A stretch of DNA of 36,197 nt, taken from assembly GCF_003385775.1 (NCBI RefSeq), contig NZ_QRDP01000005.1:1-36197 (forward strand). Direction: 5' to 3'. This document shows positions 86-34,986 of the stretch, piece after piece. Both the position numbers and the translations under genes were made by a program. The notes under the pieces were generated by a model. The model made no database searches and was not told the DNA's origin. It was given only the letters and a program-made list of their open reading frames with translations. Every line of letters starts with the position of its first letter. The first letter of the stretch is position 1. The stretch comes from Parasphingopyxis lamellibrachiae. GTDB taxonomy: Bacteria; Pseudomonadota; Alphaproteobacteria; Sphingomonadales; Sphingomonadaceae.

Positions 86-821
86 TCACGTTAACTTGAT
101 TAACGTTCGGGCGAACGAGCGATTAACTGGCGTTGATGGAACCAATCTCATTTGATCGCCATCGCTTTCCACCTGAGATCATCCGATATGCGGTCTGGCT
201 CTACGCCAAGTTCACGTTGAGCTTCCGCGATGTTGAAGATCTCCTGGTCGAACGGGGTTTGGATGTGTCGTACGAGACGGTACGTCGTTGGTGCTTGAAG
301 TTTGGACCCACTATTGCGCGCAATCTGAAAACCAAGCGGCCAGCACCGAGTGACCATTGGCATCTCGACGAGATGGTAATGGTCATTCGAGGAAGACACT
401 ACTGGCTTTGGCGCGGCGTCGATAATGAGGGCGAAGTTCTGGACTTCCTAGTGCAATCACGCCGAAACACAAAGGCTGCGGAAAAGCTCATGCGCAGCCT
501 GTTAAGGCAGCATTGCCGTCCAACCCAAGTTACAATCGACAAGCTGCGCTCCTACTGTGCAGCCTTCAAGAAACTCGCATCAACCGGTTCGAAGGCGAGA
601 GCGAAAGATGCAGCGGTTCAAATCACCTGGATCAGCACAATGCTTCCTCAACCTTCAATCGGCGACCTAAAACAGTTTCTACTTCCAGCGTCATCTGCTC
701 GATCGGGCAACCTTCAAACGATATCGGGCAGGTGCTCTCAATGATTGGACTGCCGCATCCGCGGAAACTTGACCTCACGGATCAACCCGCTTCGTCGCAG
801 CTAAGTCGAGTTAACGTGACA
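86..821 (+). mobile_element. Remnant of an IS6-family-like insertion sequence
   Basis: The broken transposase gene is bracketed by imperfect inverted ends. TCACGTTAACTTGATTA at 86-102 matches the reverse complement of 802-821, sharing an 11-base exact block (TCACGTTAACT) and a partly matching continuation. I see no 8-bp target duplication beside these ends, so either the boundaries are approximate or the flanks have changed. The assignment to the IS6 family rests on the transposase. The element is presumably immobile. Confidence 0.5.
136..772 (+). pseudogene. IS6-family DDE transposase, frameshifted and internally deleted
   Basis: The first about 145 residues read as an IS6-type transposase: an N-terminal helix-turn-helix region (FTLSFRDVEDLLVERGLDVS), the WHLDEM motif with the first catalytic Asp, and the RGVDNEGEVLDF block with the second. 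After DKLRSYCAAFKK the frame breaks. The family sequence resumes one frame over at about 575 (SHQPVRRRERKMQRF) and runs to a stop at 770-772, interrupted by a TAA where a Tyr would be expected (SAT-stop-NSFYFQRHLL). Roughly 20 codons carrying the third catalytic residue (the Glu of the usual NNRAE motif) are missing. ATG at 136 is the likely original start; a TTG precedes it at 133. With a deletion, a frameshift and a nonsense codon, the enzyme is dead. Confidence 0.85.
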
Positions 822-960: not shown

Positions 961-1794
961 TCATTTCAGGCGCGCCGCGTGCCAGGCGATATGATCTGCC
1001 AGGAAGGTCGAGACGAAATAGTAGCTGTGGTCGTAGCCTTCTCTCATATTCAGGGTGAGCGCGATCCCAACATCGGCGCACGCCTTTTCCAGCAAGTCTG
1101 GTTTTAGCTGATCGGTCAGAAACTTATCAGCGGCCCCCTGATCAACAAGCAGTTGGTCGACCCGATGTCCGTCTGCGATCAGAGCGCACGCGTCATGGGC
1201 GCGCCATGCGGAACGATCCTCCCCGAGATAGGCTCCAAGTGCCTTTTCGCCCCAAGGGCAGTTCAAAGGGGAAACTATCGGGGAAAAGGCTGAGACGCTC
1301 CGGAACCTTTCCGGATTGCGCAGGCCGATTGTGAGTGCGCCATGGCCACCCATCGAATGACCGGTGATACCTTGCCGTTTCATGTCTGCCATCGGAAACT
1401 GTTTGGCAGTCAATGTCGGCAATTCCGTCTCGATATAGCTCTTCATCCGAAAATTCTTGGCCCATGGATCTTGCGTAGCATCGACGTAAAAGCCGGCACC
1501 TTTACCGAAATCATAGGCTTCATCATCGGCGACGTCCTCGCCGCGCGGGCTGGTATCTGGCGCAATAAAAATGACACCATGTTCGGCGCACGCAGCTCTG
1601 AATTCCCCCTTTTCAGTAACATTTGAATGGGTGCAGGTGAGCCCGGACAGATACCATATTACGGGAAGTTGTGCGCCATCTTCATGGCCGGGTATGAACA
1701 CCGAAAAAGTCATTGCGGTACCCGTAGTTTTGCTGTCATGCCGATACACGCCCTGTGTTCCGCCATGGGTATTATACTGTTCTATCCGTTCCAT
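961..1794 (-). CDS. fghA: S-formylglutathione hydrolase
   Basis: Cytosolic esterase that hydrolyses S-formylglutathione to formate and glutathione, the second step of glutathione-dependent formaldehyde detoxification. The protein has the esterase-D/FGH pattern: WYLSGLTCTHSN near the N-terminus, the nucleophile motif GHSMGGHGA, and the C-terminal catalytic His in EGYDHSYYF. At 277 residues it is family length. Two consecutive ATGs (1797 and 1794) follow an AGGA; the second has the better spacing. A longer in-frame extension to 1929 overlaps the reductase and has no family match, so I rejected it. It is last in the operon ferredoxin, formaldehyde dehydrogenase, reductase, hydrolase. Its linkage to the dehydrogenase and to a formate dehydrogenase 25 kb away gives a full formaldehyde-to-CO2 route. 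Confidence 0.93.
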   Translation of the reverse strand: MERIEQYNTHGGTQGVYRHDSKTTGTAMTFSVFIPGHEDGAQLPVIWYLSGLTCTHSNVTEKGEFRAACAEHGVIFIAPDTSPRGEDVADDEAYDFGKGAGFYVDATQDPWAKNFRMKSYIETELPTLTAKQFPMADMKRQGITGHSMGGHGALTIGLRNPERFRSVSAFSPIVSPLNCPWGEKALGAYLGEDRSAWRAHDACALIADGHRVDQLLVDQGAADKFLTDQLKPDLLEKACADVGIALTLNMREGYDHSYYFVSTFLADHIAWHAARLK

Positions 1795-1819
1795 CATAAA
1801 TCCTGTGTTGATCGGTTCG

Positions 1820-3046
1820 TTAAACCAGCAACTCCTTGAGTGGGACCAATGCATCGGAAAGGGCAGCTGTGTTGGTTTTCGCTCGCGCTTCAACGAGTTT
1901 GCGACCCTGTACATAATCTTTGGTCGCATTCACACAGTCCAGAGCAATCACGCGGTCTTTCTTGAGATAGACGATGGAAAAGCTGCGATTGGAGGGATCA
2001 CCGCGTATGACAATGTCATCATAACCGGCCGATAGGCCCACGGTTTGCAGTTTGAGATCATATTGGTTTGACCAGAACCAGGGCGTGGCAGCATATTCGG
2101 TCGGCAGGCCGAGGATCGCTTTGGCAGCAACGGTGGCCTGGTCATTGGCATTCTGAACCGATTCCAGTCTGATCGTGGCGTTATCGGCAAATGCGTTCAC
2201 ATGGGCCGCGCAGTCTCCGATCGCGAAAATATCGGGAAGTGAAGTGCGGCATTGGTCGTCGACCGAAACGCCATTGCTGCCATCCGCGCCCGCTGTCGCT
2301 AAGGGTTCGATCGCTGGGGTGATGCCGATGCCGACGATTACCATTTCGGCATCAATAATTTCGCCATCGACCAGTTGAACGCCGGTTGCCCGGCCATACT
2401 CGCCAATTACGCGGCCCACCATCACATTAGTGCGCAGATCGACACCACGGGCGCGATGCTCGGCCTCATAAAAGCGTGACAACTCTTCGCAGGCGACACG
2501 CGCCAGCACCCGGTCAAGCGCTTCAAGCAGTATGACATGTTTGCCTAGTTTGGTCAGAACAGCGGCAGCTTCCAATCCGATAAAGCCGCCGCCGATCACG
2601 ACGACGCGTTGAACACGGTCGAGCTGTTGCATCATGGCATCGCAATCCGCTCGGGTGCGCACGGCATGAATACCTGTCAGATCATGGCCAGGACATGTGA
2701 GTTTGCGCGGGGCACCGCCCGTCGCCCAGATCAGTGTGCCATAACCAAATTTGCCACCATTCTCGAAATTGACACAATGGGCTGTGGCATCGACTTCGAC
2801 CACGCGCCGCCCCAGCAAAATCGATATCTCGCGCTCCGCCCAGAATTTTTCTGGACGGATCATGATCCGTTCGAAAGGCTTGTCGCCGGCGAAATATTCT
2901 TTGGACAAGGGTGGACGTTCATAAGGATATTCAAGCTCATCACCTGCAATGGCGATTGAACCCGTAAACTTCATCTGCCGTAACGCGATCGCCGCCTGTG
3001 CGCCGCCATGGCCCGCGCCGACTATCAAGACGTTCGCCTGGTCCAT
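1820..3046 (-). CDS. NAD(P)H:ferredoxin reductase, glutathione-reductase type
   Basis: FAD-dependent reductase of the putidaredoxin/rhodocoxin-reductase class, passing electrons from NADH to a ferredoxin. It has an N-terminal FAD-binding motif ([14 protein letters not shown]), the PYERPPLSK block typical of the class, a second nucleotide-binding motif for NADH ([15 protein letters not shown]), and the FAD motif DIFAIGDCA before the C-terminal domain. It is about 408 residues. ATG at 3046 is chosen; an in-frame GTG at 3055 is an alternative, and neither has a strong ribosome-binding site. It sits between formaldehyde dehydrogenase and S-formylglutathione hydrolase, downstream of the seven-iron ferredoxin, so it probably serves the Rieske oxygenase at 4847-5992. 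A paralogue at 10031-11266 probably serves the ring dioxygenases. Confidence 0.88.
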
Positions 3047-3064
3047 AGTGCGCACCAGCGGTCT

Positions 3065-4177
3065 CTAGTAAATCACGACGCTGCGGATACTTTCGCCTGC
3101 GTGCATAAGGTCAAAACCCTTGTTGACCTCGTCCAGGCTCAGCGTGTGGGTAATCATCGGATCTATCTCGATCTTGCCATTCATATACCAGTCCACAATC
3201 TTGGGTACGTCGGTCCGGCCCTTTGCCCCGCCAAAGGCAGTGCCACGCCAGTTGCGCCCGGTTACCAGCTGGAACGGCCGAGTGCTGATTTCCATACCCG
3301 CTTCCGCCACACCAATGATAATGCTGGTGCCCCAGCCACGGTGGCAAGCTTCAAGGGCCGTGCGCATGACTTCGGTATTGCCCGTGCAATCAAAGGTGTA
3401 ATCCGCCCCGCCATCGGTCAGTTCGACAATCTTGGCGATTGTCGCGTCGCGGCTCATTCCCTTGGTTTTGAGGAAGTGTGTCATACCGAACTTGCGGCCC
3501 CATTCTTCGCGGTCGGAATTGATATCCACTCCGATGATCCTGTTCGCGCCGGCCATCCGTGCGCCCTGCAACACGTTGAGACCAATCCCGCCCAGTCCGA
3601 AAACAACAACATTGTCGCCGACCTGCACATTGGCGGTATTGGTCACGGCCCCAACGCCGGTCGTCACGCCGCAGCCAATATAGCAGCTGGTCTTGAACGG
3701 CGCGTCAGTGCGGATTTTGGCGACCGCGATCTCGGGCAGCACGGTGAAATTGGAGAAGGTCGAGCAGCCCATATAATGATGGATTGTCTGGCCCTTGTAG
3801 CTGAACCGGCTCGTTCCATCGGGCATCAGCCCCTGGCCCTGCGTCGCACGGATAGCGGTGCAGAGATTGGTCTTGCCGGACAGGCAGCTTTTACACTGGC
3901 GGCATTCGGGCGTGTAAAGCGGAATCACATGATCGTCGGGCGCAACCGAGGTGACGCCCGCACCAACCTCGCGCACAATACCCGCGCCCTCATGGCCAAG
4001 CACGGAAGGGAAAAGCCCCTCGCTGTCCAGCCCGTTCAATGTATAGGCATCCGTATGGCAGATGCCCGTCGCCATGATCTCGACTAAAACCTCGCCCTTT
4101 TTCGGGCTTTCGAGATCCAGCTCGACAATCTCAAGCGGCTTCTTCGCTTCAAACGCTACGGCAGCACGGGTTTTCAT
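3065..4177 (-). CDS. frmA: S-(hydroxymethyl)glutathione dehydrogenase (class III alcohol dehydrogenase)
   Basis: Oxidises the spontaneous adduct of formaldehyde and glutathione to S-formylglutathione with NAD+. The 370-residue protein has all the zinc features: catalytic zinc ligands in GICHTDAYT, the GHEGAG motif and the Cys of [10 protein letters not shown], and structural zinc ligands in the four-Cys lobe [17 protein letters not shown]. The Rossmann motif is [14 protein letters not shown] at 4177 is preceded by GAGGA at good spacing. The next gene starts within about 20 bp of its stop, so the two are probably co-transcribed. Being in one operon with oxygenase electron carriers, it most likely handles formaldehyde released by an oxidative demethylation rather than general stress. 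Confidence 0.95.
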
Positions 4178-4341: not shown

Positions 4342-4677
4342 CTATCTCTGGATCGGCGACATGGAGAAGTATTTTTCAAATTTCCCATCAACACCCTTAA
4401 AGTCTTCCACGTCTTCAGGCGGTTCATGCTTCTCTAGCGCTTGGGGCCATTTCTCAGAATACATCCGATTGACCTCGATCCAACGAGCCGCCTCCGGAAA
4501 GCCATCATCAAATATCGCATCTGCTGAGCATTCTGGCTCACAGACGCGGCAATCGATTCATTCGTCCGGATTGATGACGAGCATATTCTCACCCTCATAG
4601 AAGCAATCGACCGGGCAAACGTCCACGCAGTCCATATGTTTGCATTTGATGCATGCCTCGGTGACGATGAAAGTCAT
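4342..4677 (-). pseudogene. fdxA: Seven-iron ferredoxin (FdxA/FdI type) with in-frame TGA at a cluster cysteine; pseudogene or selenoprotein candidate
   Basis: Read through one TGA, this frame gives a 111-residue seven-iron ferredoxin: [20 protein letters not shown], then [14 protein letters not shown], the TGA (codon 40, bases 4558-4560), then IDCRVCEPECSADAIF and an intact tail ending in TAG at 4342-4344. By comparison with Azotobacter FdI, C9, C17 and C50 would bind the [3Fe-4S] cluster, and C21, codon 40, C43 and C46 the [4Fe-4S] cluster. Codon 40 is therefore a ligand Cys in the family, one base change from TGC or TGT. The rest is undamaged. A 13-bp bulged hairpin starts ten bases after the TGA. 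Ended at the TGA, the product would be a useless 39-residue fragment. Its expected role is electron carrier between the reductase at 1820-3046 and the Rieske oxygenase upstream. A nonsense mutation, a base-calling error or selenocysteine are all possible; the first is the default. Confidence 0.85.
4516..4548 (-). other. Hairpin just downstream of the in-frame TGA of the ferredoxin
   Basis: In transcript direction the arms are CGCGTCTG-TGAGC and GCTCA-G-CAGATGCG around a six-base loop CAGAAT. This gives 13 base pairs (one G-U) with a single bulged G. The loop begins 22 nt after the TGA, within the range reported for bacterial SECIS elements. The usual G in the first two loop positions is absent; the G is third. 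It lies inside coding sequence, so it may be coincidental. Confidence 0.45.
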
Positions 4678-4833: not shown

Positions 4834-4859
4834 CCTAGAAAGCCGCTCAGTTTTCTAGG
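4834..4859 (-). terminator. Hairpin at the end of the Rieske oxygenase gene
   Basis: CCTAGAAA at 4834-4841 and TTTCTAGG at 4852-4859 form a perfect 8-bp stem with a 10-base loop that includes the stop codon. It separates the oxygenase from the ferredoxin promoter. It is AT-rich and lacks a clear downstream T-run, so termination is only possible. Confidence 0.3.
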
Positions 4860-5992
4860 CTTTGCGTAAGATAGGCAGCAAGCCGCTTGGTCGCCGCCTC
4901 GAGAGGGCTTAATCTCGACTGACGCGCGAGACCGCTTTCGGCGCCGCGCTGTACCGCTTCGACCCGGACCCGGTCTTCTTCGTTAAAAGCCAGAGCAAGA
5001 TCGAGAAAATACAGGTTTGGGTGATTGCGATCAATCAGGTCCTGGTCGATATCGAACAACCCGCAGAGACCATGGTCGACCCGCACGCTCCTCGCGGAAA
5101 TCGGCTGCATGGAGATCCACCAAACCCAGTCACCCGAAACAGAGAACACAAAGCTCGGGAATATCCCGCCAACGACCGCCTCGCGTTGGCGGGCTTCGTC
5201 GATATCCGGATTGGCGATAGCGATCTTCGGATCAGGCTTGTCGGGAACAAAGCTATCGGAAAGACCGCTAGTATAGTGAAAGCAATCGGCCGGGCCATCG
5301 ACCATTCGAACCTTGCTAACCGGTGCAACTTGGGCGAGCGTATCGGTGTGAGTGGCGTTGATATGATAGGCTTCGAGGCCATTTTCAACGAGGATTTTCC
5401 AGTTGCAATTCCAGATGAAGGTTTCGCGGTGGAGCGTCCGCATCTTGTCAATGCGATAGTCGGCAACGGCATGATCAAGACTGACAATCCTCGGCAATAG
5501 CGGCCGGGCATCCGGGTCTAGACTAACGAAGAGAAAGCCATTCCACTCAGTCAATTGTGCCTGGGTCATTCCAACCCCCGCAGAGTCGAAATCTTTTCCC
5601 ATACGCGGCGCCTGGAGTAGCGTGCCATCCAAAGCGTAGGTCCATGCATGATAGGGACAGACGAACGCGCGCGCGCACCCGGTGCCGGTAGCGACGATCG
5701 TCGCGCGGTGAGCGCAGACATTGACCAAGGCTAAGATACTGCCGTCTTTCTGACGCACGACCAGTATGGGAACCGAGTCCAGATCAGAGGTGAAATAGTC
5801 GCCAGGATCTCGAATTTCATCGGCCCGACCCACACAGACCCAATCACGGCGGAAGATCCTTTCTCGCTCCAACGTAAGAAGATCCTCGTCACAATATACT
5901 TGCGGAGGCATGGAGAATAATGCGTCGTCAGAAGCCAAGGCCACTGCAGAAATATCCTGAAGCAAGTTAGCTACATTCTTCGGTGTGTTCAT
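4847..5992 (-). CDS. Rieske non-haem iron oxygenase, demethylase/betaine-monooxygenase type
   Basis: Terminal oxygenase of a three-component system. The Rieske domain has C93-x-H95 (NVCAHR) and C112-x2-H115 (CPYHAW). The catalytic domain has H210 and H215 in NGLEAYHINATH as iron ligands. The pattern and the 381-residue length resemble the choline/glycine-betaine/carnitine/stachydrine oxygenase group more than ring dioxygenases. There is no beta subunit beside it. An excellent Shine-Dalgarno (GAGAGGG) precedes ATG 5992. The gene follows an EamA transporter and precedes ferredoxin, formaldehyde dehydrogenase, reductase and S-formylglutathione hydrolase. From this context I infer oxidative N- or O-demethylation releasing formaldehyde. 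The substrate is unknown. Its natural ferredoxin partner would be the TGA-interrupted gene downstream. Confidence 0.85.
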   Translation of the reverse strand: MNTPKNVANLLQDISAVALASDDALFSMPPQVYCDEDLLTLERERIFRRDWVCVGRADEIRDPGDYFTSDLDSVPILVVRQKDGSILALVNVCAHRATIVATGTGCARAFVCPYHAWTYALDGTLLQAPRMGKDFDSAGVGMTQAQLTEWNGFLFVSLDPDARPLLPRIVSLDHAVADYRIDKMRTLHRETFIWNCNWKILVENGLEAYHINATHTDTLAQVAPVSKVRMVDGPADCFHYTSGLSDSFVPDKPDPKIAIANPDIDEARQREAVVGGIFPSFVFSVSGDWVWWISMQPISARSVRVDHGLCGLFDIDQDLIDRNHPNLYFLDLALAFNEEDRVRVEAVQRGAESGLARQSRLSPLEAATKRLAAYLTQSLEN

Positions 5993-9152: not shown

Positions 9153-10034
9153 TCAGGTTACCGGATTACTCAGTGACCCGATCGGTTCAATGCTGACTGT
9201 CACTATGTCCCCAGGCCGCAGGTAGCGGGGCGGATCAAATCCGATCCCGACTCCTTCTGGCGTGCCGGTGGCGATGATGTCGCCGGGCACCAAGGTAATA
9301 TAGGCTGAAATCGTGGCAATCAGGGTCGGAATATCGAAGATCAGATCGGAAATCTGTCCGTCTTGGCGGATTTCACCATTCACCTCAGTGACTAAACGGA
9401 GGCCTGTAACATCCAGATTAGAATTCGCGACCAATATGACTGGCCCCATGGGACAGAAGCCGTCAATTCCCTTGCCGAGGACCCACTGTTTATGTCGCTT
9501 TTGCGCTTCCCTCGCCGTTACATCGTTGAGGACCGTGTATCCGAAGACATGCGACATGGCATCTTGTTTGGCGATGTTCCGGCCACCGGTTCCAATGATT
9601 ACAGCCAGCTCGCCTTCATAGTCGACACTGTCGTCGGGATCGAAGGCCGTACAAATCGGACTCTCCGGCGCAGCAACACTTGTCGTAGCCTTTGTGAAGA
9701 TGATCGGAGCATCGGGAACCTCGTCGCCGCCAGTGTTCCCGCTATCGAACCCGCTCGATCCGAACTCCTTGGCATGCCGCAGATAATTCTTGCCGACACA
9801 AAAGACATCGCGAACAGGATGCGGAATTGGAGCCAATATGCAGATATTGCCGGTCAGCGGAGCTTCTTGCGTGTCAGCATCCCATTGCGAGATATCATGC
9901 AGTCTTTCAGGACCGGCAGCCACGATGTCGAGCATGGTGGAAAACCCTATAGCCGCAAGATCCATAAAGCTTCCATCGCCGCGCTGTAGAGCTACTCCGG
10001 TGCGGTCGCCTTGGGCAAAACTCAGCAATTTCAT
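9153..10034 (-). CDS. Fumarylacetoacetate hydrolase (FAH)-family enzyme
   Basis: A 293-residue member of the FAH superfamily, divalent-metal enzymes that cleave or decarboxylate beta-keto and oxo acids in aromatic catabolism. The metal site pattern is present: the acidic residues in VDYEGELAVIIG and the downstream YTVLNDVTARE, followed by KGIDGFCPMGP and the C-terminal DIIATGTPEGVG. The start codon overlaps the end of the ferredoxin reductase gene by 4 bp (ATGA), showing translational coupling. In this cluster it may process an acyl-pyruvate or oxo-acid made after ring opening. Function within the superfamily cannot be told from sequence. Confidence 0.87.
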   Translation of the reverse strand: MKLLSFAQGDRTGVALQRGDGSFMDLAAIGFSTMLDIVAAGPERLHDISQWDADTQEAPLTGNICILAPIPHPVRDVFCVGKNYLRHAKEFGSSGFDSGNTGGDEVPDAPIIFTKATTSVAAPESPICTAFDPDDSVDYEGELAVIIGTGGRNIAKQDAMSHVFGYTVLNDVTAREAQKRHKQWVLGKGIDGFCPMGPVILVANSNLDVTGLRLVTEVNGEIRQDGQISDLIFDIPTLIATISAYITLVPGDIIATGTPEGVGIGFDPPRYLRPGDIVTVSIEPIGSLSNPVT

Positions 10035-11266
10035 GCGTTTATCTCCATAGAATCTACACTTTCGGCCGGGCTGCAGGGAGCTGCCGCAGCATCTCGCATC
10101 TCGCTCATTTGCCGTGACAAGGCGCGGCGGCGGCGGCCACTGTTGAACAACACCGCACCGGTTATCACATCGCCACGGCTATAAAGATGGACATACTGAT
10201 CCGGTGTTTTTCCGGGTTCAACGGTCATCTGATCCTCGTCGGTCGGAACGCCGACGATTTGGACATTCCGGTCGAACTGATCGGTCCAGAACCAGGGGGG
10301 CGCATCATTTGTTGTGGGCAGCCCGCAAATCACCCGAGCGACCTGCTCAGCTTGCCGCTCGGCATTTTCCCAGGACTCGAGCCGGGCCGGCTTACCGAAC
10401 CATCTATTTGGTGCGATCGCCGCATCACCGATCGCATATATGTCGGAAACTGAAGTCCGGCATTGATCGTCCACCAAAATGCCGTTTCCGCATTCAAGGC
10501 CAGCCGCTTCGGCAAGCTTCATATTGGGCTCCGATCCGATGCCCACAACCACAACGTCAACATTCAAGGACTCGTCATCGTTGAGCAAGAGGCGGATCCT
10601 ACTATTCGTTTCTTTCGTCTCTTTTACCGATGCACCCCAGCGAAATCGCGTCCCATGACGCTCATGCAGATCGACCAAAACTCGCGCAGAGGCCGATGGC
10701 AAAACACGTTCGAGACACTGCTGACCAAGCTCAATCACGGTAACCGTCCAACCCAGCTGGCGAGCGCTGGCCGCCACTTCAAGGCCTATAAAACCGCCAC
10801 CGATAATTGCGATGTCGCCCTGCCTTCCGCTGAGTGTCCGACGCAAGACCTCAGCATCATCGCATGTCCGAAGATAATATGGTTTTGCGGCTTCAGAACC
10901 TGGCCATTCCAACCGCCGTGCACGGGCGCCAGTCGCTAAAATGAGGCGTTGGAAACCCAACCGGTCCCCGTCCATAAAAGTCAGTTCGCGCGTCGCAGAA
11001 TTAATCCATCGCACCGGCATATCGAGACGAAGTTCAATCGAATTCTCGTGATAGACGGATTCGGGATTGACGAGAGCCGCTCCCGCCTGCGCGGCTCCCA
11101 GCAAAACCTCTTTCGAAAGAGGTGGCCGCTCATATGGCGCACGCGCCTCCTGACCGACTAAGATAATCTCGCCGCCATATCCATTTGCCCGGAGGGCGAC
11201 CGCCGCCCGCCCTCCGGCCTGACCTGCCCCTATTATTACCGTTCGTTCCACGCTGGCACTACTCAA
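10031..11266 (-). CDS. NAD(P)H:ferredoxin reductase, glutathione-reductase type (second copy)
   Basis: A 411-residue FAD- and NADH-binding reductase: FAD motif [30 protein letters not shown] motif [15 protein letters not shown], and DIYAIGDAA. It is clearly paralogous to the reductase at 1820-3046 but has diverged throughout. The start overlaps the end of the TonB-receptor gene by 8 bp. Its likely partner is the Rieske ferredoxin at 13768-14088, feeding the CarAa-type and salicylate-hydroxylase-type oxygenases of unit A. In sphingomonads such carriers often serve several oxygenases. Confidence 0.88.
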   Translation of the reverse strand: MSSASVERTVIIGAGQAGGRAAVALRANGYGGEIILVGQEARAPYERPPLSKEVLLGAAQAGAALVNPESVYHENSIELRLDMPVRWINSATRELTFMDGDRLGFQRLILATGARARRLEWPGSEAAKPYYLRTCDDAEVLRRTLSGRQGDIAIIGGGFIGLEVAASARQLGWTVTVIELGQQCLERVLPSASARVLVDLHERHGTRFRWGASVKETKETNSRIRLLLNDDESLNVDVVVVGIGSEPNMKLAEAAGLECGNGILVDDQCRTSVSDIYAIGDAAIAPNRWFGKPARLESWENAERQAEQVARVICGLPTTNDAPPWFWTDQFDRNVQIVGVPTDEDQMTVEPGKTPDQYVHLYSRGDVITGAVLFNSGRRRRALSRQMSEMRDAAAAPCSPAESVDSMEINA

Positions 11267-13571
11267 AACGATAGCTCAGAGTGATCCCATAACTTTGCCG
11301 TGCACCCCGAATCGCGCCGTTCAGGCCAAAGTCCGATAGCGGAAATATTTCGTCATTATATCGCGTTCCTGACAAGTTGCGTATCCAGGCTGTCAGCGAA
11401 TAACGGCCATCAGCCTCTCGAAGTGCAATCGACGCATTGTGCACCCAAAAACGGCGCTGGGAGAGCTCGCTGGCGTTCTCCGGCGTAAAATATTTCCGGC
11501 TGTTATAGGTAAAGTCGTATGACGGAACCAGTTCGAGATTGTCATTGATCGAAATAGTGTAATCGACCGAACCGCTTAGATTAAATCTAGGCGCGACCGA
11601 CAACCGGTTGCCTGACAAATCGACAGTTTCGTCCTGCGGTGTCGTTGGATCATCGACCGCGGCAATGAACCGTGTATATTCAGCATCCAGCAAAGCTCCG
11701 GACAACCGCAATGAGAGCGCTTCCATCGGCCGCGCATCAATCTCGAACTCGAGACCGGACACCCGGGCAGCACCTGCATTCGAATAGCGTGAAGTTGGGA
11801 TACCCGTTGTCGCATCAGGAATAAACTGAAATACCTGCAAATCGCTGAACTCATTATAGAATGCCGAGACATTCAAACGGACTCGGTTATTCGCAAGCTG
11901 AGACTTAAATCCCACTTCGAACGCGTCGACAGTTTCGGGATTGGCCGAATTCACGTCCATCGGCTCAAAAAACGGCGAAGCATTGAATTGGCCGCTTTTG
12001 AAGCCACGATTATAGGACGTGTATAAGAGGATATTGTCCGCCGCTTGATATTCGAGAATCACGTTACCGGTCAGCGCGTCCCAGCTCCGCCTGCGTTCGA
12101 CATCGATCAGGCTGGGGATACCGGCCAACAGCGCAGAATCTGCCGTTGTGAAATAATCCAGCGTCTTGCGATCACGGGTATAGCGGAGACCTGCAGTTAA
12201 GGTGACAGCATCGTTGAAATGATAGGATGCAGAACCGAAAGCAGCGTAACTCCTGGTCCTCTGCGTGTAGAGCTGGCTGATCACAATCGGTGCCGCAGGG
12301 TCAGTTATGTCTGGTATCGCGCCGAAAAGCTCGCGTGCGAAGCGGCCGACATCGAAGCTGTTATTGGCCCGCACACGATCAGAATAGAAATAGCCGCCGA
12401 TTATCCATGTCAGTGGCTTGTCGGGGTCGGAGTCAAGCCGAAGCTCCTGGCTGAACTGCCAGCTTTCATCGCCAAAATCGACGTTGACGTAATTAAGTGG
12501 CGTCCCGTCCGAATCAAAACGCACAAACGCATCGACGGCCTCATAACCCGTCACCGAGTGCAGCGTAGGCCCTCCAAGATAAATTTCGCCATTGAGAGAT
12601 ATTCCGAAGCTCTCGACCTCTTCATCTTGCGGGAGATCCCATTCGCCGTCCCAATACCCGCCCATTGGGCTAAAGGGCGCCGTAACGCCGATAATCGGCA
12701 ACACACCATCGGGATAAAGACCGTTTGGCACGCGCTGGAAATGATATCGAGGACCATCGCCGGTCAACCGACCGCCATGCACATTCAACAACCAGTCCTG
12801 ATTGTCATCCGGCTGCAGCCGCAGCAAGCCCCTGAGAGCCCAACTTTCGGAATCACCAACGCGCTCGCCTGTGAACTGATTCACGCCGCTACCGTTGTTT
12901 GAACGATAGACGCCAGCGAGACGCATGCTGAGTACATCCCCCGCAAGCGGCGCCTGCACGCCAGCTTCAATGTCAAACTGATCGAAACGGCCATAGGTTG
13001 CCGAAGCATTAGCTGCGAAATCACCGTCCGGCTGCCTAGCGAAAAAATTCACCGCGCCGCCTGTGGTATTGCGGCCGTACAGCGTTCCTTGCGGTCCACG
13101 CAGAACCTCAACCCGGTCGAGATCAAACATCTGAAACAACTGACCCGACTGCAAACCTTGATAGACCTCGTCAGCATAAAAACCGACCGCGCCTGATGCG
13201 CTCACGTTAAAATCGTTGGTTCCGATACCGCGTAGAAAGACGTTGGGTTTGGTCTGGCCGTTTGATGACCTGATCTGCAAGCCCGGAGTTTGGGCGGTAA
13301 GTTCACTCGGGTCTGTAAAACCGAACCGAGTGATATCTTCTGCGCCAAAGGCGGTGACGGCTGCAGGCACATCCTGCAAATTTTCATCACGCCGTTGCGC
13401 AGTAACGATGATCACCGAAAGCCCGCCAGTATCTTCCGACACAGATTCGGTCTCATTTTGCGAATTTTGCGCAACGGCTGGCATCGCCAAGAACGGCGAG
13501 AAAAACACTGCCCCAGTCAACAATTTCAACTTGACGCCCACATGCCCGTCCTTCGATCTTTTGCTCACCAC
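11259..13571 (-). CDS. TonB-dependent outer-membrane receptor
   Basis: A 770-residue outer-membrane receptor. The N-terminus has a signal peptide (basic start, hydrophobic LLTGAVFFSPFLAMPAVAQ with cleavage after the AVA-Q region), then the plug domain with VIIVTAQRRDENLQDVPAAV as TonB-box-like start, and the plug motif DLDRVEVLRGPQGTLYGRNT. The beta-barrel follows and ends in SYGITLSYRFE with a terminal Phe-Glu. The start is GTG 13571 (a second GTG follows) behind AGGGAG. First gene of unit B, it probably takes up the aromatic substrate; sphingomonads commonly use such receptors in place of porins. It is transcribed from the promoter at 13609-13675. Confidence 0.93.
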   Translation of the reverse strand: MVSKRSKDGHVGVKLKLLTGAVFFSPFLAMPAVAQNSQNETESVSEDTGGLSVIIVTAQRRDENLQDVPAAVTAFGAEDITRFGFTDPSELTAQTPGLQIRSSNGQTKPNVFLRGIGTNDFNVSASGAVGFYADEVYQGLQSGQLFQMFDLDRVEVLRGPQGTLYGRNTTGGAVNFFARQPDGDFAANASATYGRFDQFDIEAGVQAPLAGDVLSMRLAGVYRSNNGSGVNQFTGERVGDSESWALRGLLRLQPDDNQDWLLNVHGGRLTGDGPRYHFQRVPNGLYPDGVLPIIGVTAPFSPMGGYWDGEWDLPQDEEVESFGISLNGEIYLGGPTLHSVTGYEAVDAFVRFDSDGTPLNYVNVDFGDESWQFSQELRLDSDPDKPLTWIIGGYFYSDRVRANNSFDVGRFARELFGAIPDITDPAAPIVISQLYTQRTRSYAAFGSASYHFNDAVTLTAGLRYTRDRKTLDYFTTADSALLAGIPSLIDVERRRSWDALTGNVILEYQAADNILLYTSYNRGFKSGQFNASPFFEPMDVNSANPETVDAFEVGFKSQLANNRVRLNVSAFYNEFSDLQVFQFIPDATTGIPTSRYSNAGAARVSGLEFEIDARPMEALSLRLSGALLDAEYTRFIAAVDDPTTPQDETVDLSGNRLSVAPRFNLSGSVDYTISINDNLELVPSYDFTYNSRKYFTPENASELSQRRFWVHNASIALREADGRYSLTAWIRNLSGTRYNDEIFPLSDFGLNGAIRGARQSYGITLSYRFE

Positions 13572-13608
13572 TTTCGATCTCCCTGTAGATCAATTGCCCT
13601 ATGATTTT

Positions 13609-13675
13609 TGCCCTACAATATAGACACGCTTGATACGGTAGATGTCAATAGTTTGATTACAATTATTGTAGGACA
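13609..13675 (-). promoter_or_regulatory. Promoter of the TonB-receptor operon with two operator boxes
   Basis: Toward the receptor gene, TTGACA (13643-13648) and TCTATA (13619-13624) are 18 bp apart, a good sigma-70 promoter. One box, TGTAGGGCA (minus strand, 13609-13617), directly follows the -10. A second, TGTAGGACA (plus strand, 13667-13675), lies upstream of the -35 and is part of TACA-N5-TGTA (13658-13670). The centres are 58 bp apart. Boxes on both sides of the promoter suggest repression with cooperative or looped binding. Confidence 0.62.
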
Positions 13676-13731
13676 TTTGAAGCGCGAGAATTGCTGCTAT
13701 TTTCTTTTTGTCCTCAACGGCATGCCATCGG

Positions 13732-13757
13732 CGATCCGGAAAACTGACTCCGGATCG
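13732..13757 (-). terminator. Perfect 9-bp hairpin between units A and B
   Basis: CGATCCGGA at 13732-13740 and TCCGGATCG at 13749-13757 pair perfectly around an 8-base loop, 10 bp past the stop of the Rieske ferredoxin gene and upstream of the next promoter. The location suits a transcript end. There is no T-run on the transcript side, so it may stabilise the 3' end rather than terminate. Confidence 0.45.
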
Positions 13758-13767
13758 GAAGCTGCCT

Positions 13768-14088
13768 TCATTTGGACGCGATAAAAAGCGCATCCTCAAC
13801 CCGTTTCACGGGATAGGTGGCTATAGGAATTGTGCAGGGTCGTTCTGTCGGATTGCCAGTTGCAATCTCGAACCCTCCGCCATGGAAGGGACAAAAAATC
13901 TGCCCGTCTTCGATATCTCCTTCGCTCAATGATGCCATACCGTGCGAGCATGTATCGGCTATGGCGAAGAACGCACCGTCCACCTGACACACGGCCAGCG
14001 GATCATAGCCCGGAACGGTAACGCGCAAGATACCGCTATCCGGAATGTCCGAAATGCAGCACAGACGCAAAAATTTAGAATCGCTCAT
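13768..14088 (-). CDS. Rieske-type [2Fe-2S] ferredoxin of a ring-hydroxylating system
   Basis: A 106-residue soluble Rieske ferredoxin with both ligand pairs: C-x-H in DTCSHGMASL and C-x2-H in FCPFHGGGFE. Length and motifs match the ferredoxins of naphthalene, biphenyl and carbazole (CarAc) dioxygenases. The start overlaps the end of the extradiol dioxygenase gene by 4 bp. It is the last gene of unit A and would carry electrons to the CarAa-like oxygenase and probably also to the alpha/beta oxygenase at the head of the operon, since only one such ferredoxin is present. Confidence 0.92.
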   Translation of the reverse strand: MSDSKFLRLCCISDIPDSGILRVTVPGYDPLAVCQVDGAFFAIADTCSHGMASLSEGDIEDGQIFCPFHGGGFEIATGNPTERPCTIPIATYPVKRVEDALFIASK

Positions 14089-14912
14089 AATGCATTAATT
14101 TCTTTGTTGAATAATTCAATTCCGCCCATCCCGGTCACCCATTCCGGAATCGCCTCATAATAGACACGTTCACCCGGAGACCCAGGCAGTGCTCCGGCCA
14201 TGATTAGCCAGTTAACGACTTCAAGTCCGCCATTTCCGCCTTCGGCAAGTATTTCGGCAGGAGACATGCTCAGAAGGTTTTCAGGATGCGCGCCTGTCAG
14301 TTCATCCATGATCCGATAATCGAAATCGCTGTTGACCTTGCCCATATCAGCCACCGCAAGCCAGTGAGAAAGCCCGCCGGTTCCCACCACAACGACGCGC
14401 TCATCCTGCGGTCTCTCTTCGGCGACGAAACTCCGGATCAATCCGCCAAGCTCCCAGCCCTGCTGCAATGAAGGGGCCGGTTCGAGAGCAGTATTGGTAA
14501 TCAGCGGAATAATCGGAATGGGGCTACCACCGGAGATCAACAATGCGGGAATGACCACACCATGGTCCGGCAGGTAATCACGCATCGCGCACACCGGGAC
14601 TGCCCGGTCAGAACAATAGGCAGCAAAATCTCCGGCAAATTTCGCATCGCCCACAAACGGATCTTTTGGCAAATGCATATCACCGAATGGAATATGCACA
14701 TCTTCCGCAGCGATGCTGAACGCGCTGTCGTCGCCAATCCGAAAATTATAGAAGTGATCCGAAGAAACGATGATGACGCGATCAGGCGCAAGCGCCCTTA
14801 TCCGCCTACCAATTTCTTTCATTCCCGCGAAAACGCGCTCACCAGCTTCACCCGCAGTACCTCGTTTCATCACGAGATGTGCAGTACCGAAACCCCCAAC
14901 AATCAAGCCCAT
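14085..14912 (-). CDS. Class III extradiol ring-cleavage dioxygenase, catalytic subunit (LigB/CarBb-like)
   Basis: The catalytic Fe(II) subunit of a protocatechuate-4,5-/2'-aminobiphenyl-2,3-diol-type dioxygenase, which opens catecholic rings next to the diol. Iron ligands fit the LigB pattern: His12 (FGTAHLV), His53 (SSDHFYNF) and a late Glu (VYYEAIPEW). The acid-base His is in GTGGLSHWLA. It is 275 residues from ATG 14912, close to CarBb and LigB. A GGAG overlapping the upstream gene's stop serves as ribosome-binding site. A longer frame reaching back to 15026 overlaps the small-subunit gene without homology, so I rejected it. With the small subunit just upstream it forms the ring-opening enzyme of unit A. 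Confidence 0.9.
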   Translation of the reverse strand: MGLIVGGFGTAHLVMKRGTAGEAGERVFAGMKEIGRRIRALAPDRVIIVSSDHFYNFRIGDDSAFSIAAEDVHIPFGDMHLPKDPFVGDAKFAGDFAAYCSDRAVPVCAMRDYLPDHGVVIPALLISGGSPIPIIPLITNTALEPAPSLQQGWELGGLIRSFVAEERPQDERVVVVGTGGLSHWLAVADMGKVNSDFDYRIMDELTGAHPENLLSMSPAEILAEGGNGGLEVVNWLIMAGALPGSPGERVYYEAIPEWVTGMGGIELFNKEINAL

Positions 14913-14919
14913 AACACCG

Positions 14920-15192
14920 TTACTCCAAATCTTCGAGATAGTCGCCGAAGCTGATCTGGTCGGCGATTTGGGGATTGCGTGCGAGCGAGTAGACCATCTG
15001 TGCCAAAGGATGCATGCCCAGTTCACCTAGAGCCGGAAATTCACCGTCCAGCAGCAACGCACATTCCGCTTCAGCAAAGCCCTGCTCCGCTAGAACTGCC
15101 CCAGCATCCGCTTCAAACCGCGCGCGCAGCTCCGGCGATTGCCATAAACGGTGCACGAAATCGTGAATATGCTTCCGGTCTTCCATCGCCAT
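14920..15192 (-). CDS. Extradiol dioxygenase small subunit (LigA/CarBa-like)
   Basis: A 90-residue helical protein of the LigA/CarBa family, the structural subunit that closes the active site of the class III dioxygenase encoded next to it. Family features are IHDFVHRLWQSPELRARFEADAG-type helices and the GMHPLAQMVYSLA segment, spread over residues of about 8-75. ATG 15192 overlaps the stop of the hydrolase gene (TGATG); a second ATG at 15186 is possible. The order small subunit then catalytic subunit matches carBa-carBb of carbazole degraders. Confidence 0.87.
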   Translation of the reverse strand: MAMEDRKHIHDFVHRLWQSPELRARFEADAGAVLAEQGFAEAECALLLDGEFPALGELGMHPLAQMVYSLARNPQIADQISFGDYLEDLE

Positions 15193-16010
15193 CAATCCCG
15201 GCGCGCAAACTGATCGACCAAATCGGCGAATTCCGCTGGATATTCGATCATTGGCCAATGCCCGCAATTGGGCATCACCACCCCCCAGCTTTGTGGGATC
15301 AGTTCCAGAAAACGATAAGCGTTGGCGAGCGGGACCACGCCGTCATTCTTACCGGCCACAACCAAAGTCGGGCACGACACGGCAGCGATGCGTTCTTCGG
15401 ATATCTCAAGGCCGCTATTCGCCTTTTGCCAGGCCGTGATCTGCTGATAGGCATATTGCGTATCAGGCTCAATTGACAATGCATGCCGATAGGCAATCAT
15501 TTCGCCGGGCGGGACAAAACCGGGACCGGTCAATGCTTCGACGATCCTGGCCATTCCTTCTTCGCTATGATCATATTCGATAATCGACAGTAGTTCCGGT
15601 GACATTGGAACGGGCAATCCCGCACTGCCCATTAGCAACAGCTTACGCACAAGATCAGGCCGATCATGCGCAACACCGAGCGATGTTAGGCCGCCCATCG
15701 AATTTCCAACCAATATGGCCGGGCCACAATCTATAGCTTCGAGAAATGCCACGAGATGAGCCTCGCGCTCAGCTTGCCCGTAAACAAAATCATCCCTCCG
15801 GGGCTTTTCGGTTTTTCCGAAACCTACCATATCCGGTGCGTACACAGCATAGTTTTCAGCGAGGGAGGTGACCGTCTCCGTCCAGTTGCCGACCGCGTCG
15901 GCCCCGGCCCCACCGCCATGAACAAGGATCACCGACGCTCCGGCCCCCGCCCTAAGATAATGGGTCCGCAGACCACCCGCATCGATAAACTTGCTCTCAA
16001 CTGATGTCAT
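15192..16010 (-). CDS. Alpha/beta hydrolase, meta-cleavage-product hydrolase type (CarC-like)
   Basis: Serine C-C hydrolase of the BphD/CarC/TodF group, expected to split a ring-opened 2-hydroxy-6-oxo-dienoate into a 2-hydroxypenta-2,4-dienoate and a carboxylic acid. The 272 residues contain the oxyanion motif VHGGGAGADA, the nucleophile elbow GNSMGG, an acid in VAGKNDGVV, and the catalytic His in NCGHWPMIE. AGGGGG precedes ATG 16010. It lies directly before the extradiol dioxygenase genes and after the CarAa-like oxygenase. In known car clusters carC follows carBb, so the gene order differs here. The leaving group would reveal the substrate but is not predictable. Confidence 0.88.
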   Translation of the reverse strand: MTSVESKFIDAGGLRTHYLRAGAGASVILVHGGGAGADAVGNWTETVTSLAENYAVYAPDMVGFGKTEKPRRDDFVYGQAEREAHLVAFLEAIDCGPAILVGNSMGGLTSLGVAHDRPDLVRKLLLMGSAGLPVPMSPELLSIIEYDHSEEGMARIVEALTGPGFVPPGEMIAYRHALSIEPDTQYAYQQITAWQKANSGLEISEERIAAVSCPTLVVAGKNDGVVPLANAYRFLELIPQSWGVVMPNCGHWPMIEYPAEFADLVDQFARRD

Positions 16011-16021
16011 TTTTTTGCCCC

Positions 16022-17200
16022 CTAAGCGCGCAAATCTGAAGGTCGCTGGACGCCGCGATTACGTTTGGAAATCAGACGCCGAAAAACAATTATGTTTTCA
16101 TCGGCTTCGAATAGAGCTTCATCGACCCATTGATGGTCGTCGGCATAGCCTTCCTCGGCTGCTTCCCGCGCCCAGATGTCCGGCCCGTTAAACTCTTCCA
16201 AAGCGTAAAAGGCCCAACGGTTATTATATTCCCGTTTGAAATCGCGCTTCTCTTCATCTGTTTCCGCGCGCGTGCCCAAGTTTTGAAAATACATGTGCGT
16301 GGTTTCGTCGATGGGCACATACCATTCAAATTGCGTGGTCTTCGGGTCAGGCCAAGGATCGACTTTAAGCGCACATGGCATCCACATTGAAATGGTCGAA
16401 GGGACGAGATTTTTGCCCGTAACATCGGACGGAACTTTGAGGACGGTTTCGCCTTCGATCTTGCCTTCGAACGCGGGAATAACGTGCGGGCCGTAGATCT
16501 CGATGACGCCTCTGGGGCCGTCTTCGCCATCAACCAGTTCGTGGCTCTGCTCACCCGAAGCCCCAAAGCCCAGTGGCAGGACGAGATCATTTTCCTGAAT
16601 TAGCAATGATTCCCGGTGAATATAGATATGCGTTTTATCGAAGCCGTTTTCCACGCCATGCCGCCAGTTGGACTGAACAGTCTGGCGCTGGGAAAGCACA
16701 TAATTGTCTTCATCGAGGAAATTCGGCGGCACATCATCGATAAGCGGCGGAATATTTCCATCGCGATCTCCGAGGAAAACAAAAACCAACCCTTTGGCTT
16801 CTTCGACAATGTAACTGCGCACCCCGCGAGTGCCGTCAACAATGCGGGTTTCAGGGGCAGCTATGACATCGGTGAGTTTCCCATCTGCCCAACGATAGGT
16901 GTAGCCATGATACCAGCACGTGATCGTAGCTTTGGTATGGCATTCGGGCTTTTTCGAAAATTTCACGCCGCGGTGCAAACATCGATCCCGAATGCAATGC
17001 ACTTCGCCATCAATACGATTTAGAAGCAGGTTCTCGCCGCATAACTTAGCTGTTACAGGCTTGCCTTCCTCAACCTCGTCGGAGAGCAAGACCGGGTACC
17101 AATGGTTCCGAAAGCCCAGCTTGGCTTCAACATAGTCACGCCATCCCTTTACCCTGTCCAGGATATCGGGGTCTACCAGTTGATCATCTTGCGTAGTCAT
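16022..17200 (-). CDS. Carbazole-1,9a-dioxygenase-like Rieske terminal oxygenase (CarAa type)
   Basis: Homomeric-type terminal oxygenase resembling CarAa, which attacks the ring carbon next to a bridging heteroatom (angular dioxygenation). The Rieske ligands are C74/H76 (DRCLHRGV) and C95/H98 (CWYHGY). The catalytic motif ENGFDKTHIYIHRES carries D188, H191 and H195 with the spacing of CarAa D180-H183-H187. At 392 residues it is near CarAa's length and has no separate beta subunit. ATG 17200 is chosen because GAGAGGAAG precedes it; an upstream in-frame ATG at 17224 lacks such a site. Neighbours of CarC, CarBa, CarBb and CarAc type support the assignment to an angular pathway. Carbazole itself is not implied; demethylation of a hetero-substituent by this fold is an alternative. 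Confidence 0.87.
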   Translation of the reverse strand: MTTQDDQLVDPDILDRVKGWRDYVEAKLGFRNHWYPVLLSDEVEEGKPVTAKLCGENLLLNRIDGEVHCIRDRCLHRGVKFSKKPECHTKATITCWYHGYTYRWADGKLTDVIAAPETRIVDGTRGVRSYIVEEAKGLVFVFLGDRDGNIPPLIDDVPPNFLDEDNYVLSQRQTVQSNWRHGVENGFDKTHIYIHRESLLIQENDLVLPLGFGASGEQSHELVDGEDGPRGVIEIYGPHVIPAFEGKIEGETVLKVPSDVTGKNLVPSTISMWMPCALKVDPWPDPKTTQFEWYVPIDETTHMYFQNLGTRAETDEEKRDFKREYNNRWAFYALEEFNGPDIWAREAAEEGYADDHQWVDEALFEADENIIVFRRLISKRNRGVQRPSDLRA

Positions 17201-17236
17201 CAAACTTCCTCTCTCATGTACCATGAACCGCCCTGC

Positions 17237-18595
17237 CTATTCGGCCGCTATCCCATTTCGGGCCGCAAGCGTATCGCGCGTGTAAACATCGTTCCACATG
17301 GCATAGCTGAATTCAGTCGCCAGTCGGGATCGGTTATGATTGGGGGTCAAGTCTACAGTGGCCCCGTCTTTATAGACCGCCAGAATGTTAGCCGGATCAA
17401 GCGGAACCGAAATATCTTCCAGCGGATTTTGAGCGAGCACCAATATGTCGGCGATGCTGCCCTGTGTCAGCGACCCGACATCCGATCCCGCTTGGGTAAA
17501 CCATGCGTTTTCCACGGTCGCCTGCCGCAATACTTCCCGCTCCGAAAACCCGATATATTTCATATGGTTTTCCAGCTCACGGGCATGCCACTCGCCATAA
17601 GGTGTCACGGCAAAGCCGGCTTCGCTGCCAATCAGAAAACGCACACCTGCTTCGCGCGCCCGGCTGAGGTTTTTCGCCGCGGCATCCAGCTCATGTTTGT
17701 GTGCATCAACCAGTGCGGGATAGCTTGGATCACTTGGCTGAGCGAATTCGATATTGTTCACTAAGAGCGAGAGCGTCGGGCAGAGAGCACAGTCATTCTC
17801 GATAACCGCCTCAAGGGCTTGTTCATCCATATAGGACGCATGAAATATCAGATCGGCATCGGCGCGGGCAGCATGGAGAACGCCCTCTGCTCCGCGGGCA
17901 TGCACAACGACCTTGCGACCGAGCCGATGAGCCTCATCCACCAGCAAATCGACCTCGTCCTGCCGGAAGGCACAGGCCAACCGTATCGATGACGGGTTCA
18001 TGGAATCGCCGTCCATCGACAGCTTGATGAAGTCGACCCCATCCTTCACCTGCTGCCGGATGGCATCGAGCCCCTCATCCTTGTTGTGAACGATCTGACC
18101 AATCGAAGTGTCGGGAACTCCGACCCAGGTTGGATACCAATCCACCAACCCTTGGCGCGAGCTGATATTCCGCCCCGAACAGGTCACACGCGGGCCAACA
18201 AAAAGGCCGGCATCAATGGCATCGCGAATAGCCAGACTAACGCGGCCTGAAGTCGTCGGATCACATACCGAGGTATAGCCAGCGCGCAAAATCCTCTGCG
18301 CGGCTTCCATACCGCGCAGTGCACGAAATTCGAGGCTCGCGAAAAGGTCTATATCCTCCTCGGTCTTCGCTTCTCCATAGGATAGGTGGACATGCGCATC
18401 GATCAGGCCAGGCATAACGAAAGCATCGTTATAGTCGATAATCTTGGCCTCAGGCGCAATGGCAGGCGCCTTTCCCGAATGCCCTGCATAAACTATATGC
18501 TGACCTTGCATGACAATGACGGCATCCGAAATCACGATGTCAGCCCCGGGGTCGAACATCGTGCCGCATCTGATAACGTTGGTCTGTTGGTTCAT
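17237..18595 (-). CDS. Metal-dependent amidohydrolase with Glu in place of the usual catalytic Asp
   Basis: A 452-residue amidohydrolase-superfamily enzyme of the prolidase/imidazolonepropionase-like group, which includes hydrolases of amides, ureas and carbamates. Metal ligands follow the family: H68-x-H70 (IDAHVHLS), K191 as likely carboxylated lysine (VDFIKLSMDG), H232 (VVVHARGAEG) and H252 (LIFHASYMD). At the end of strand 8, where nearly all members have Asp in a GTD motif, it reads IGSEAGFA with Glu325. The start codon overlaps the preceding hydrolase gene's stop (ATGA). Its position between two hydrolases and the oxygenases suggests it splits an amide- or urea-like bond of the substrate or an intermediate, which is inference. 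Confidence 0.85.
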   Translation of the reverse strand: MNQQTNVIRCGTMFDPGADIVISDAVIVMQGQHIVYAGHSGKAPAIAPEAKIIDYNDAFVMPGLIDAHVHLSYGEAKTEEDIDLFASLEFRALRGMEAAQRILRAGYTSVCDPTTSGRVSLAIRDAIDAGLFVGPRVTCSGRNISSRQGLVDWYPTWVGVPDTSIGQIVHNKDEGLDAIRQQVKDGVDFIKLSMDGDSMNPSSIRLACAFRQDEVDLLVDEAHRLGRKVVVHARGAEGVLHAARADADLIFHASYMDEQALEAVIENDCALCPTLSLLVNNIEFAQPSDPSYPALVDAHKHELDAAAKNLSRAREAGVRFLIGSEAGFAVTPYGEWHARELENHMKYIGFSEREVLRQATVENAWFTQAGSDVGSLTQGSIADILVLAQNPLEDISVPLDPANILAVYKDGATVDLTPNHNRSRLATEFSYAMWNDVYTRDTLAARNGIAAE

Positions 18596-19443
18596 CGTTC
18601 ATCCTGCCTTGCAAAATGGTTGTGAATGGCACTCAGAAAGGTTTCCGTCCTCTCCATTGCAATGGAATGGCTGCATCGGCCGAGCAGCATGCAATCTGCA
18701 TCCGGCATTTTATCGAGCAACGCGAGCGACCCGGTTTCTGCAGGAAAAGCGAGGTCTTCGCGCCCGTGCAGCATCATGACGGGAACAGAGACGCGCGCCA
18801 AAATATCGTCTGAAACCACGGCAGCATTTATATAATGTTCGAAATCGCCCTCGAACATCGTGTCAAAATAGAGCCGATACTCCTCAGATCCGATGATCTC
18901 CATGCGCGCATCAAGATAGGCGTCCGTAATCAACTCATCGTCGGCGATCAGTGCCTGAGCCGCACTGCGCATCTCCTCGCGCGAAGCCGGGCACCGCCAG
19001 ATCTTTGAAAGAGCCGGAGTGACCGGCATGCGCGCACCCATGGTTCCTGTCGTCATCACGCGATTCACGCGCGTATCTTCGGCGGCTATTCTCAGCGCAA
19101 TAGCGCCCGATATGGAATGGCCGATCACACCGATCTTATCTCTGCCGAATAAATCCAACGCTGCTTTGGCCTGGCGCACCCAAAGCTCAAAATCGAAATA
19201 TGGCGGTTCCGCACGACGGTCCGAGCTTCCAAAGCCGATGAGATCCATCGCGATTACCGAATAGCGGGAGGCCAACCTATCGAGTACCAATCGCCAATTG
19301 CCGATGCTCGACGCCCCGGGACCCGATCCATGGATCAGCAAGAGGGGATCGCCCTGCCCGCCAACATATATGCCTGATTGCAACTCTTCGAACGTGAAGC
19401 TTGCCGCACGCAGCGCAGAAAAGGGAGATGACAGTGCCGCCAT
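18592..19443 (-). CDS. Alpha/beta hydrolase, meta-cleavage-product hydrolase-like (second copy)
   Basis: A 283-residue serine hydrolase with the hallmarks of meta-cleavage hydrolases: LLIHGSGPGASSIGNW (oxyanion region), the nucleophile motif GHSISGAIA, an acid in MLHGREDLAFP, and the catalytic His in GRCSHSIAME. It overlaps the beta-subunit gene by 1 bp upstream and the amidohydrolase gene by 4 bp downstream. It is only distantly similar to the CarC-like enzyme at 15192-16010. The two may act on different ring-cleavage products, or this one may hydrolyse an ester or amide. Confidence 0.85.
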   Translation of the reverse strand: MAALSSPFSALRAASFTFEELQSGIYVGGQGDPLLLIHGSGPGASSIGNWRLVLDRLASRYSVIAMDLIGFGSSDRRAEPPYFDFELWVRQAKAALDLFGRDKIGVIGHSISGAIALRIAAEDTRVNRVMTTGTMGARMPVTPALSKIWRCPASREEMRSAAQALIADDELITDAYLDARMEIIGSEEYRLYFDTMFEGDFEHYINAAVVSDDILARVSVPVMMLHGREDLAFPAETGSLALLDKMPDADCMLLGRCSHSIAMERTETFLSAIHNHFARQDER

Positions 19444-19919
19444 TATAACGGTGCCGCGATGAGGTTTTGCACGGCAAATGTATCGAGGATTACCGTGCGC
19501 TTTTTGAACTTGGGGCCGTCATCGGTTTCGACGATTACATCGCGATATCGGCCCACGGCGTAGGTCTTGGATCGGCCCTCTTCGCAGGTATGGAAGATGA
19601 CGAAATTAGATGATGCCTCAATGATATCATCGCGTGCCGAAATGCGGGTGTTTGTGATGAGATGCCGTGAATATACAAATTCGTAAGTGAGCGCATCGCG
19701 CAGCGCGGTCACCCGATCCTCCATCATTCCCCGGCTATAATAATAGACAAGTGGCGCGGGCAGACCCATCGCTTCATTCTCGCGAGACAATATCTTGTAG
19801 AGCCCGTTTTCGAGAAACAATTCCGGCCATTCCTCAAGCCGATCCTCATCAAGGCAGTCGACATATCGTTCGAGCAAATCCTGAACCGGTGATGAGGTGT
19901 CGCAAACGGCATTCATCAT
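19443..19919 (-). CDS. Ring-hydroxylating oxygenase beta subunit
   Basis: A 158-residue small subunit of the SnoaL-like/ring-hydroxylating beta family, which has a structural role in the alpha3beta3 hexamer. Typical features are the N-terminal DLLERYVDCLDEDRLEEWPELF helix-strand pattern, YYYSRGMMEDRVTALRDA, and the C-terminal YRDVIVETDDGPKFKKRTVILDTF. The start is ATG 19919, overlapping the alpha subunit's stop (ATGATGA) and preceded by AGGAG; the ATG three bases on is an alternative. It is inseparable from the alpha subunit upstream. Confidence 0.88.
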   Translation of the reverse strand: MMNAVCDTSSPVQDLLERYVDCLDEDRLEEWPELFLENGLYKILSRENEAMGLPAPLVYYYSRGMMEDRVTALRDALTYEFVYSRHLITNTRISARDDIIEASSNFVIFHTCEEGRSKTYAVGRYRDVIVETDDGPKFKKRTVILDTFAVQNLIAAPL

Positions 19920-21169: not shown

Positions 21170-21190
21170 CTCAATACCCACTCCAATTTC

Positions 21191-22069: not shown

Positions 22070-22228
22070 GGAGTGATGGCAGCAATCACTTTGTTCGATT
22101 AGATCGAACCTCTGAGGTAATGCGCAAAAAGAGGAAGGATTGAAGTATATGAACGGTCGAAAAGCCCTGAATTCCGACATTAATCCCCGTCGGAATCAGC
22201 CGTGCGCGCTAGTTGCTAAGCCGATGAT

Positions 22229-34916: not shown

Positions 34917-34986
34917 CTCTCTCTCCATTTGAGATTCATATATCATGTCCCCGAACTTGCAGCGACAATGCCGAACGAGCTATCTC

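Follow-up and report, generated by a model that had tools for sequence, protein, structure and literature searches.

Can an in-frame TGA on a cluster-ligand codon of a ferredoxin gene, followed at the right distance by a hairpin, be read as a selenocysteine codon, or is it simply the stop of a broken gene? The question is posed by a locus in the window analysed here, an entire contig (C2; 36,197 bp) of a host assembly that comprises 2.95 Mb in 12 contigs and is rated 100% complete.

The interrupted ferredoxin gene and its surroundings

The locus consists of the following features.

4342-4677, minus strand: fdxA-like seven-iron ferredoxin gene with one in-frame TGA, read as a pseudogene (translation; NCBIfam FdxA_Protbact; DUF3470 tail)
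4558-4560, minus strand: the TGA, codon 40 of that frame (translation; a Cys codon in the compared relatives)

The frame runs from 4677 to 4342 and has 111 codons, a terminal TAG and one internal stop, the TGA at codon 40; the 333-bp frame is otherwise open and the rest of it is intact. The preliminary description had reported a single TGA in an FdI-type ferredoxin frame, at the equivalent of Cys39, with the downstream cluster cysteines and the tail preserved. Translation bears out both statements and adds the strand, which had gone unstated. Codon 40 corresponds to what we take to be Cys39 of Azotobacter FdI, a [4Fe-4S] ligand (FdI numbering).

With cysteine placed at the stop, the product matches FdxA, the family of Azotobacter vinelandii ferredoxin I ([3Fe-4S][4Fe-4S]), over its full length, and it exceeds the curated cut-off of the NCBIfam equivalog for proteobacterial FdxA (FdxA_Protbact, NF045490; 146.8 bits against 135). 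Like these proteins it keeps the other cluster cysteines (9, 17, 21, 43, 46 and 50, all encoded) and the C-terminal DUF3470 domain, detected with Pfam. Unlike them it has an in-frame TGA at a ligand position, so that not all seven cluster ligands are encoded, and five residues that are near-invariant in the family are changed.

Two further genes of the window are broken as well.

21191-22195, minus strand: IclR-family regulator pseudogene, its pieces in different frames and with an extra in-frame stop (HTH piece; IclR_C; frames judged by eye)
127-744, plus strand: IS6-family transposase, its last part without a family match (NF033587: residues 8-156 against profile positions 1-150 of 202)

The IclR_C piece scores 22.2 bits, just below the cut-off of 24. 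The IclR pseudogene and the partial family match of the transposase indicate that gene decay occurs on the contig, and the earlier remark that other genes in the window carry lesions is right for these two, the ones examined. An open IclR-family frame is also present at 34871-35758 on the plus strand, and the transposase, near the left end of the contig, is flanked by 14-nt inverted repeats at 86-99 and 806-819.

A sequencing or assembly error, under which the true codon would be Cys and the accessory ferredoxin intact, is in our judgement unlikely. TGA differs from a Cys codon by one base and the remainder of the frame is undamaged, as such an error would have it. However, long open genes in the contig (770, 1162 and 948 aa) speak for good base quality, and the several changes in the IclR gene resemble real decay, though one wrong base is still compatible with them.

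The immediate neighbours of the ferredoxin gene are these.

4847-5992, minus strand: alpha subunit of a Rieske oxygenase, lying upstream of the ferredoxin gene and probably its electron acceptor (Pfam)
3065-4177, minus strand: S-(hydroxymethyl)glutathione dehydrogenase / class III ADH (TIGR02818, 599.3 bits against a cut-off of 543.95)
1820-3055, minus strand: oxygenase-type ferredoxin reductase, probably the electron donor (Pfam; best NCBIfam match below its cut-off)
961-1929, minus strand: S-formylglutathione hydrolase, its start probably over-extended (TIGR02821, residues 48-320)

The ferredoxin gene has the gene of the oxygenase alpha subunit on one side and, on the other, those of glutathione-dependent formaldehyde oxidation and of a ferredoxin reductase, an arrangement that suggests a demethylating oxygenase. 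The formate dehydrogenase of the window had been described as using Cys, a claim that stands as far as its frame is complete and without a stop.

Decoding of UGA in the host genome

Selenocysteine insertion depends on machinery that can be searched for, and the preliminary description had proposed looking for selA, selB, selD and a tRNA-Sec gene; none was found in the assembly. A profile search of the 2.95 Mb gave no match for selA. The same model scored over its cut-off in E. coli, as a positive control. Of 397 family genomes 2 also passed, whereas the 9 further genomes from the genus, not all of them complete, gave no hit over it. The search is therefore effective; selenocysteine use is rare in the family, where it is nevertheless probably present. 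The two family genomes carry their selA genes at loci L204 and L205.

The SelB model gave eight matches in the assembly, all under the cut-off of 242.25. The best (195.6) is EF-Tu, and the others bear the NCBIfam names IF-2, CysN, LepA, TypA, YihA/YsxC, EF-G and Era. Two SelD-model matches lie far under the cut-off of 125 (best 42.3) and are ThiL and PurL. All 12 matches to the tRNA-Sec model in the assembly (150 of 342 first-look candidates scored) coincide with ordinary tRNAs: ARAGORN reads eight of them as Ser, Gly, Arg, Leu or Tyr tRNAs, and the remaining four coincide with tRNA-Cys, tRNA-Arg, tRNA-Gly and tRNA-Leu. One tRNA-Ser exceeds the Rfam gathering score for tRNA-Sec (49.9 against 47) and is a false positive, because its anticodon is UGA. 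A review describes some Alphaproteobacteria in which tRNA-Sec is nested inside selB (PMC13188914). Such an arrangement does not rescue the idea of selenocysteine here, since selB was not found in the host.

Other ways of decoding UGA fare little better. Among the 43 host tRNAs (Rfam tRNA model, all 81 candidates scored; anticodons by ARAGORN) none has a UCA anticodon, and a suppressor tRNA was rejected on this ground. Reassignment of UGA was likewise rejected: the genome encodes RF2 (509.3 bits), and of the 29 window genes tabulated 17 have TGA as their stop. The tRNAs read include neither tRNA-Ile(GAT) nor tRNA-Ala(TGC), whose absence is a sign that the host contigs may lack an rRNA operon.

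Low-level readthrough of the UGA, in which a near-cognate tRNA (Cys or Trp) would let through a small amount of functional ferredoxin, is very unlikely, more so than a sequencing error. The cluster residues beyond the TGA are intact, and UGA followed by A, as here, is a rather leaky stop context. Against this stand RF2, the lack of a UCA anticodon among the 43 tRNAs and the normal use of UGA as a stop in the window; moreover, the ligand would be restored by Cys only. The narrower proposal that UGA at the cluster-ligand position is partly misread as Cys, to give the accessory ferredoxin at a low, growth-dependent level, would be slightly less probable still.

The codon and the hairpin among relatives

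The comparison covered 136 relatives: the host's own chromosomal paralogue and 135 loci, made up of the best 80 of 590 confirmed stretches, 29 loci from the 57 genomes (of 60) that gave a match, and 26 further, new loci from the 384 (of 397) that did so. They encode 132 distinct proteins, and at least one gene is present twice (L062 and L136 lie at an identical place on contigs of identical length). The position of codon 40 is Cys in all 136, as TGC in 124 and TGT in 12, and TGA occurs there in none of them.

The window copy is a divergent one. Its best identity to any of the 132 distinct proteins is 68.5%, whereas the nearest neighbours of the relatives themselves share at least 75.9%. It also departs from the family at five columns conserved to at least 97% (Y3F, E19D, G44R, P51S and N79Q), against at most 3 such changes in any of the distinct relatives. 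These changes would fit relaxed constraint or specialisation of a paralogue, and the data do not divide the two.

The genes around the window ferredoxin (oxygenase, ADH, reductases, EamA, GntR and esterase) had no match at the relatives' ferredoxin loci; as a test of operon conservation this is weak, since the loci from the genome searches came with only about 1.5 kb of flank. A search of plasmids with positions 1-25000 returned 20 records, each covering at most 4% of the query and mostly matching the ADH gene. At the protein level, plasmid-borne ferredoxins reach about 63% identity (best 30 of 225) and oxygenases stay below 60%.

Downstream of the TGA lies the second element of the selenoprotein idea.

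4516-4548, minus strand: predicted 13-pair bulged hairpin, interpreted as a by-product of the coding stretch (folding)

Folding confirms, as a prediction, the hairpin that had been described: 13 pairs with one bulge, a stem that begins 9 nt after the UGA and an apical loop that starts 22 nt after it. How rare such a structure is varies with the measure. The 76-nt stretch that holds it has a folding z of -2.08, a strength equalled by 6 of 200 shuffled versions, and equally strong folding is found in 11% (plus strand) and 20% (minus strand) of the 1445 windows of 76 nt per strand. By contrast, the 50 nt from the TGA are matched in fold strength by only 1.6% of 5876 codon-start 50-mers from 17 minus-strand genes. 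Overall, these predictions make the hairpin moderately unusual.

Bacterial SECIS elements carry a G early in the hairpin loop, within its first two bases. The loop here is CAGAAU, and the earlier observation that it lacks the usual early G is correct. Nor is the structure conserved together with a TGA: the 136 Cys-encoding relatives retain between 6 and 11 of the 13 pairs, most commonly 8 or 9. Two of them, L122 and L125, keep 11 pairs and fold with an energy similar to that of the window copy. In 8 of the 136, these two included, the same 50 nt fold at -20.5 kcal/mol or below, and the hairpin therefore needs no selenocysteine explanation; the similar folds are probably incidental to conservation of the coding stretch. 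No Rfam family reaches its gathering score anywhere in the 36,197 bp. The alignment of orthologous loci that had been suggested as a check on codon and hairpin thus gives TGC or TGT throughout and a hairpin that is incompletely kept, in relatives none of which is close (68.5% identity at best).

Prokaryotic selenoproteins of iron-sulfur systems have been described. An HgcB ferredoxin and ferredoxin-thioredoxin reductase are named as such in one paper (PMC13188914), and ferredoxin-thioredoxin reductase is so named in another (PMC2398784). The window gene is like them in having a UGA within an iron-sulfur-related gene, and unlike them in that its host has no detected Sec machinery and no compared relative has a TGA. 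Literature on FdI Cys39 yielded nothing relevant by title among the matches listed.

The probability that a selenoferredoxin is made, with Sec inserted at the UGA under the guidance of the hairpin, is accordingly rated as close to nil. The TGA falls exactly on a Cys position, and the hairpin loop lies at the distance given, in a stretch within the top 1.6% of the codon-start 50-mers tested. Against these stand the failure to find selA, selB, selD or tRNA-Sec in the assembly, the missing loop G, the partial retention of the stem in Cys-encoding relatives and the lack of an Rfam match in the window. Selenocysteine at codon 40 was rejected, the machinery being missing and the relatives all having Cys. 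The preliminary description had offered this alternative, and it falls on both counts as far as the assembly allows; it is refuted for the host genome as assembled and would need sel genes that lie outside the assembly. A tempting selenoprotein candidate is thereby settled as a false lead, with two practical lessons: a TGA on a Cys position can coincide with a suitably spaced hairpin even where the genome has no detectable Sec genes, and equally strong folds can appear at the same site in relatives that encode Cys.

The case for a nonsense mutation

The locus is very probably an ordinary broken gene, an accessory and divergent fdxA copy struck by a recent nonsense mutation. This had been the favoured reading from the start, and it gains support from the failure to find Sec genes and from the uniform Cys codon of the relatives. 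Its other supports are the stop itself, the two other broken genes of the contig, the presence of other intact ferredoxins, and the five unusual residues in so far as they fit relaxed constraint. Counted against it are the 50 nt from the TGA, whose fold is stronger than that of about 98% of comparable codon-start stretches, and the same five residues, which could instead mark specialisation of a paralogue; in addition, no relative lies above 68.5% identity by which the mutation might be dated or polarised.

The course of events may be pictured as follows. A nonsense mutation would have hit the codon for the FdI Cys39-equivalent [4Fe-4S] ligand in a divergent accessory fdxA copy of an aromatic-degradation cluster. 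Translation would then stop after 39 residues, and presumably no working ferredoxin would be made. The 333-bp frame is open but for this one lesion, which points to a recent mutation, and any decay must be recent because the tail is complete and no other cluster cysteine is lost. The cluster would most likely have its electrons carried instead by its Rieske-type ferredoxin or by the chromosomal fdxA, an open frame 61% identical to the window ferredoxin. Two features of the cluster are relevant here.

13768-14088, minus strand: open frame of 106 aa that carries a Rieske domain, interpreted as a Rieske-type [2Fe-2S] ferredoxin and a possible substitute carrier (PF00355, 58.6 bits)
10031-11266, minus strand: second ferredoxin reductase (Pfam; best NCBIfam match below its cut-off)

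Another genome of the comparison (G282) offers a parallel. A 19.5-kb stretch of it carries the oxygenase (55%) and a large part of the aromatic block in a different arrangement, with no match to the window ferredoxin, ADH or reductases; the two fdxA-like matches of that genome both lie off the stretch. Loss of the window copy is plausibly tolerated, because other intact ferredoxins exist and the G282 stretch lacks a match to it. Locally, this suggests that one ferredoxin copy of the degradation cluster is dispensable.

The aromatic-degradation block itself occupies 11259-21181 on the minus strand and includes a TonB receptor, LigB, hydrolases, a CarAa-like oxygenase and a two-subunit dioxygenase. 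Its counterparts in G282 (locus L202) reach a protein identity of up to 78.5%.
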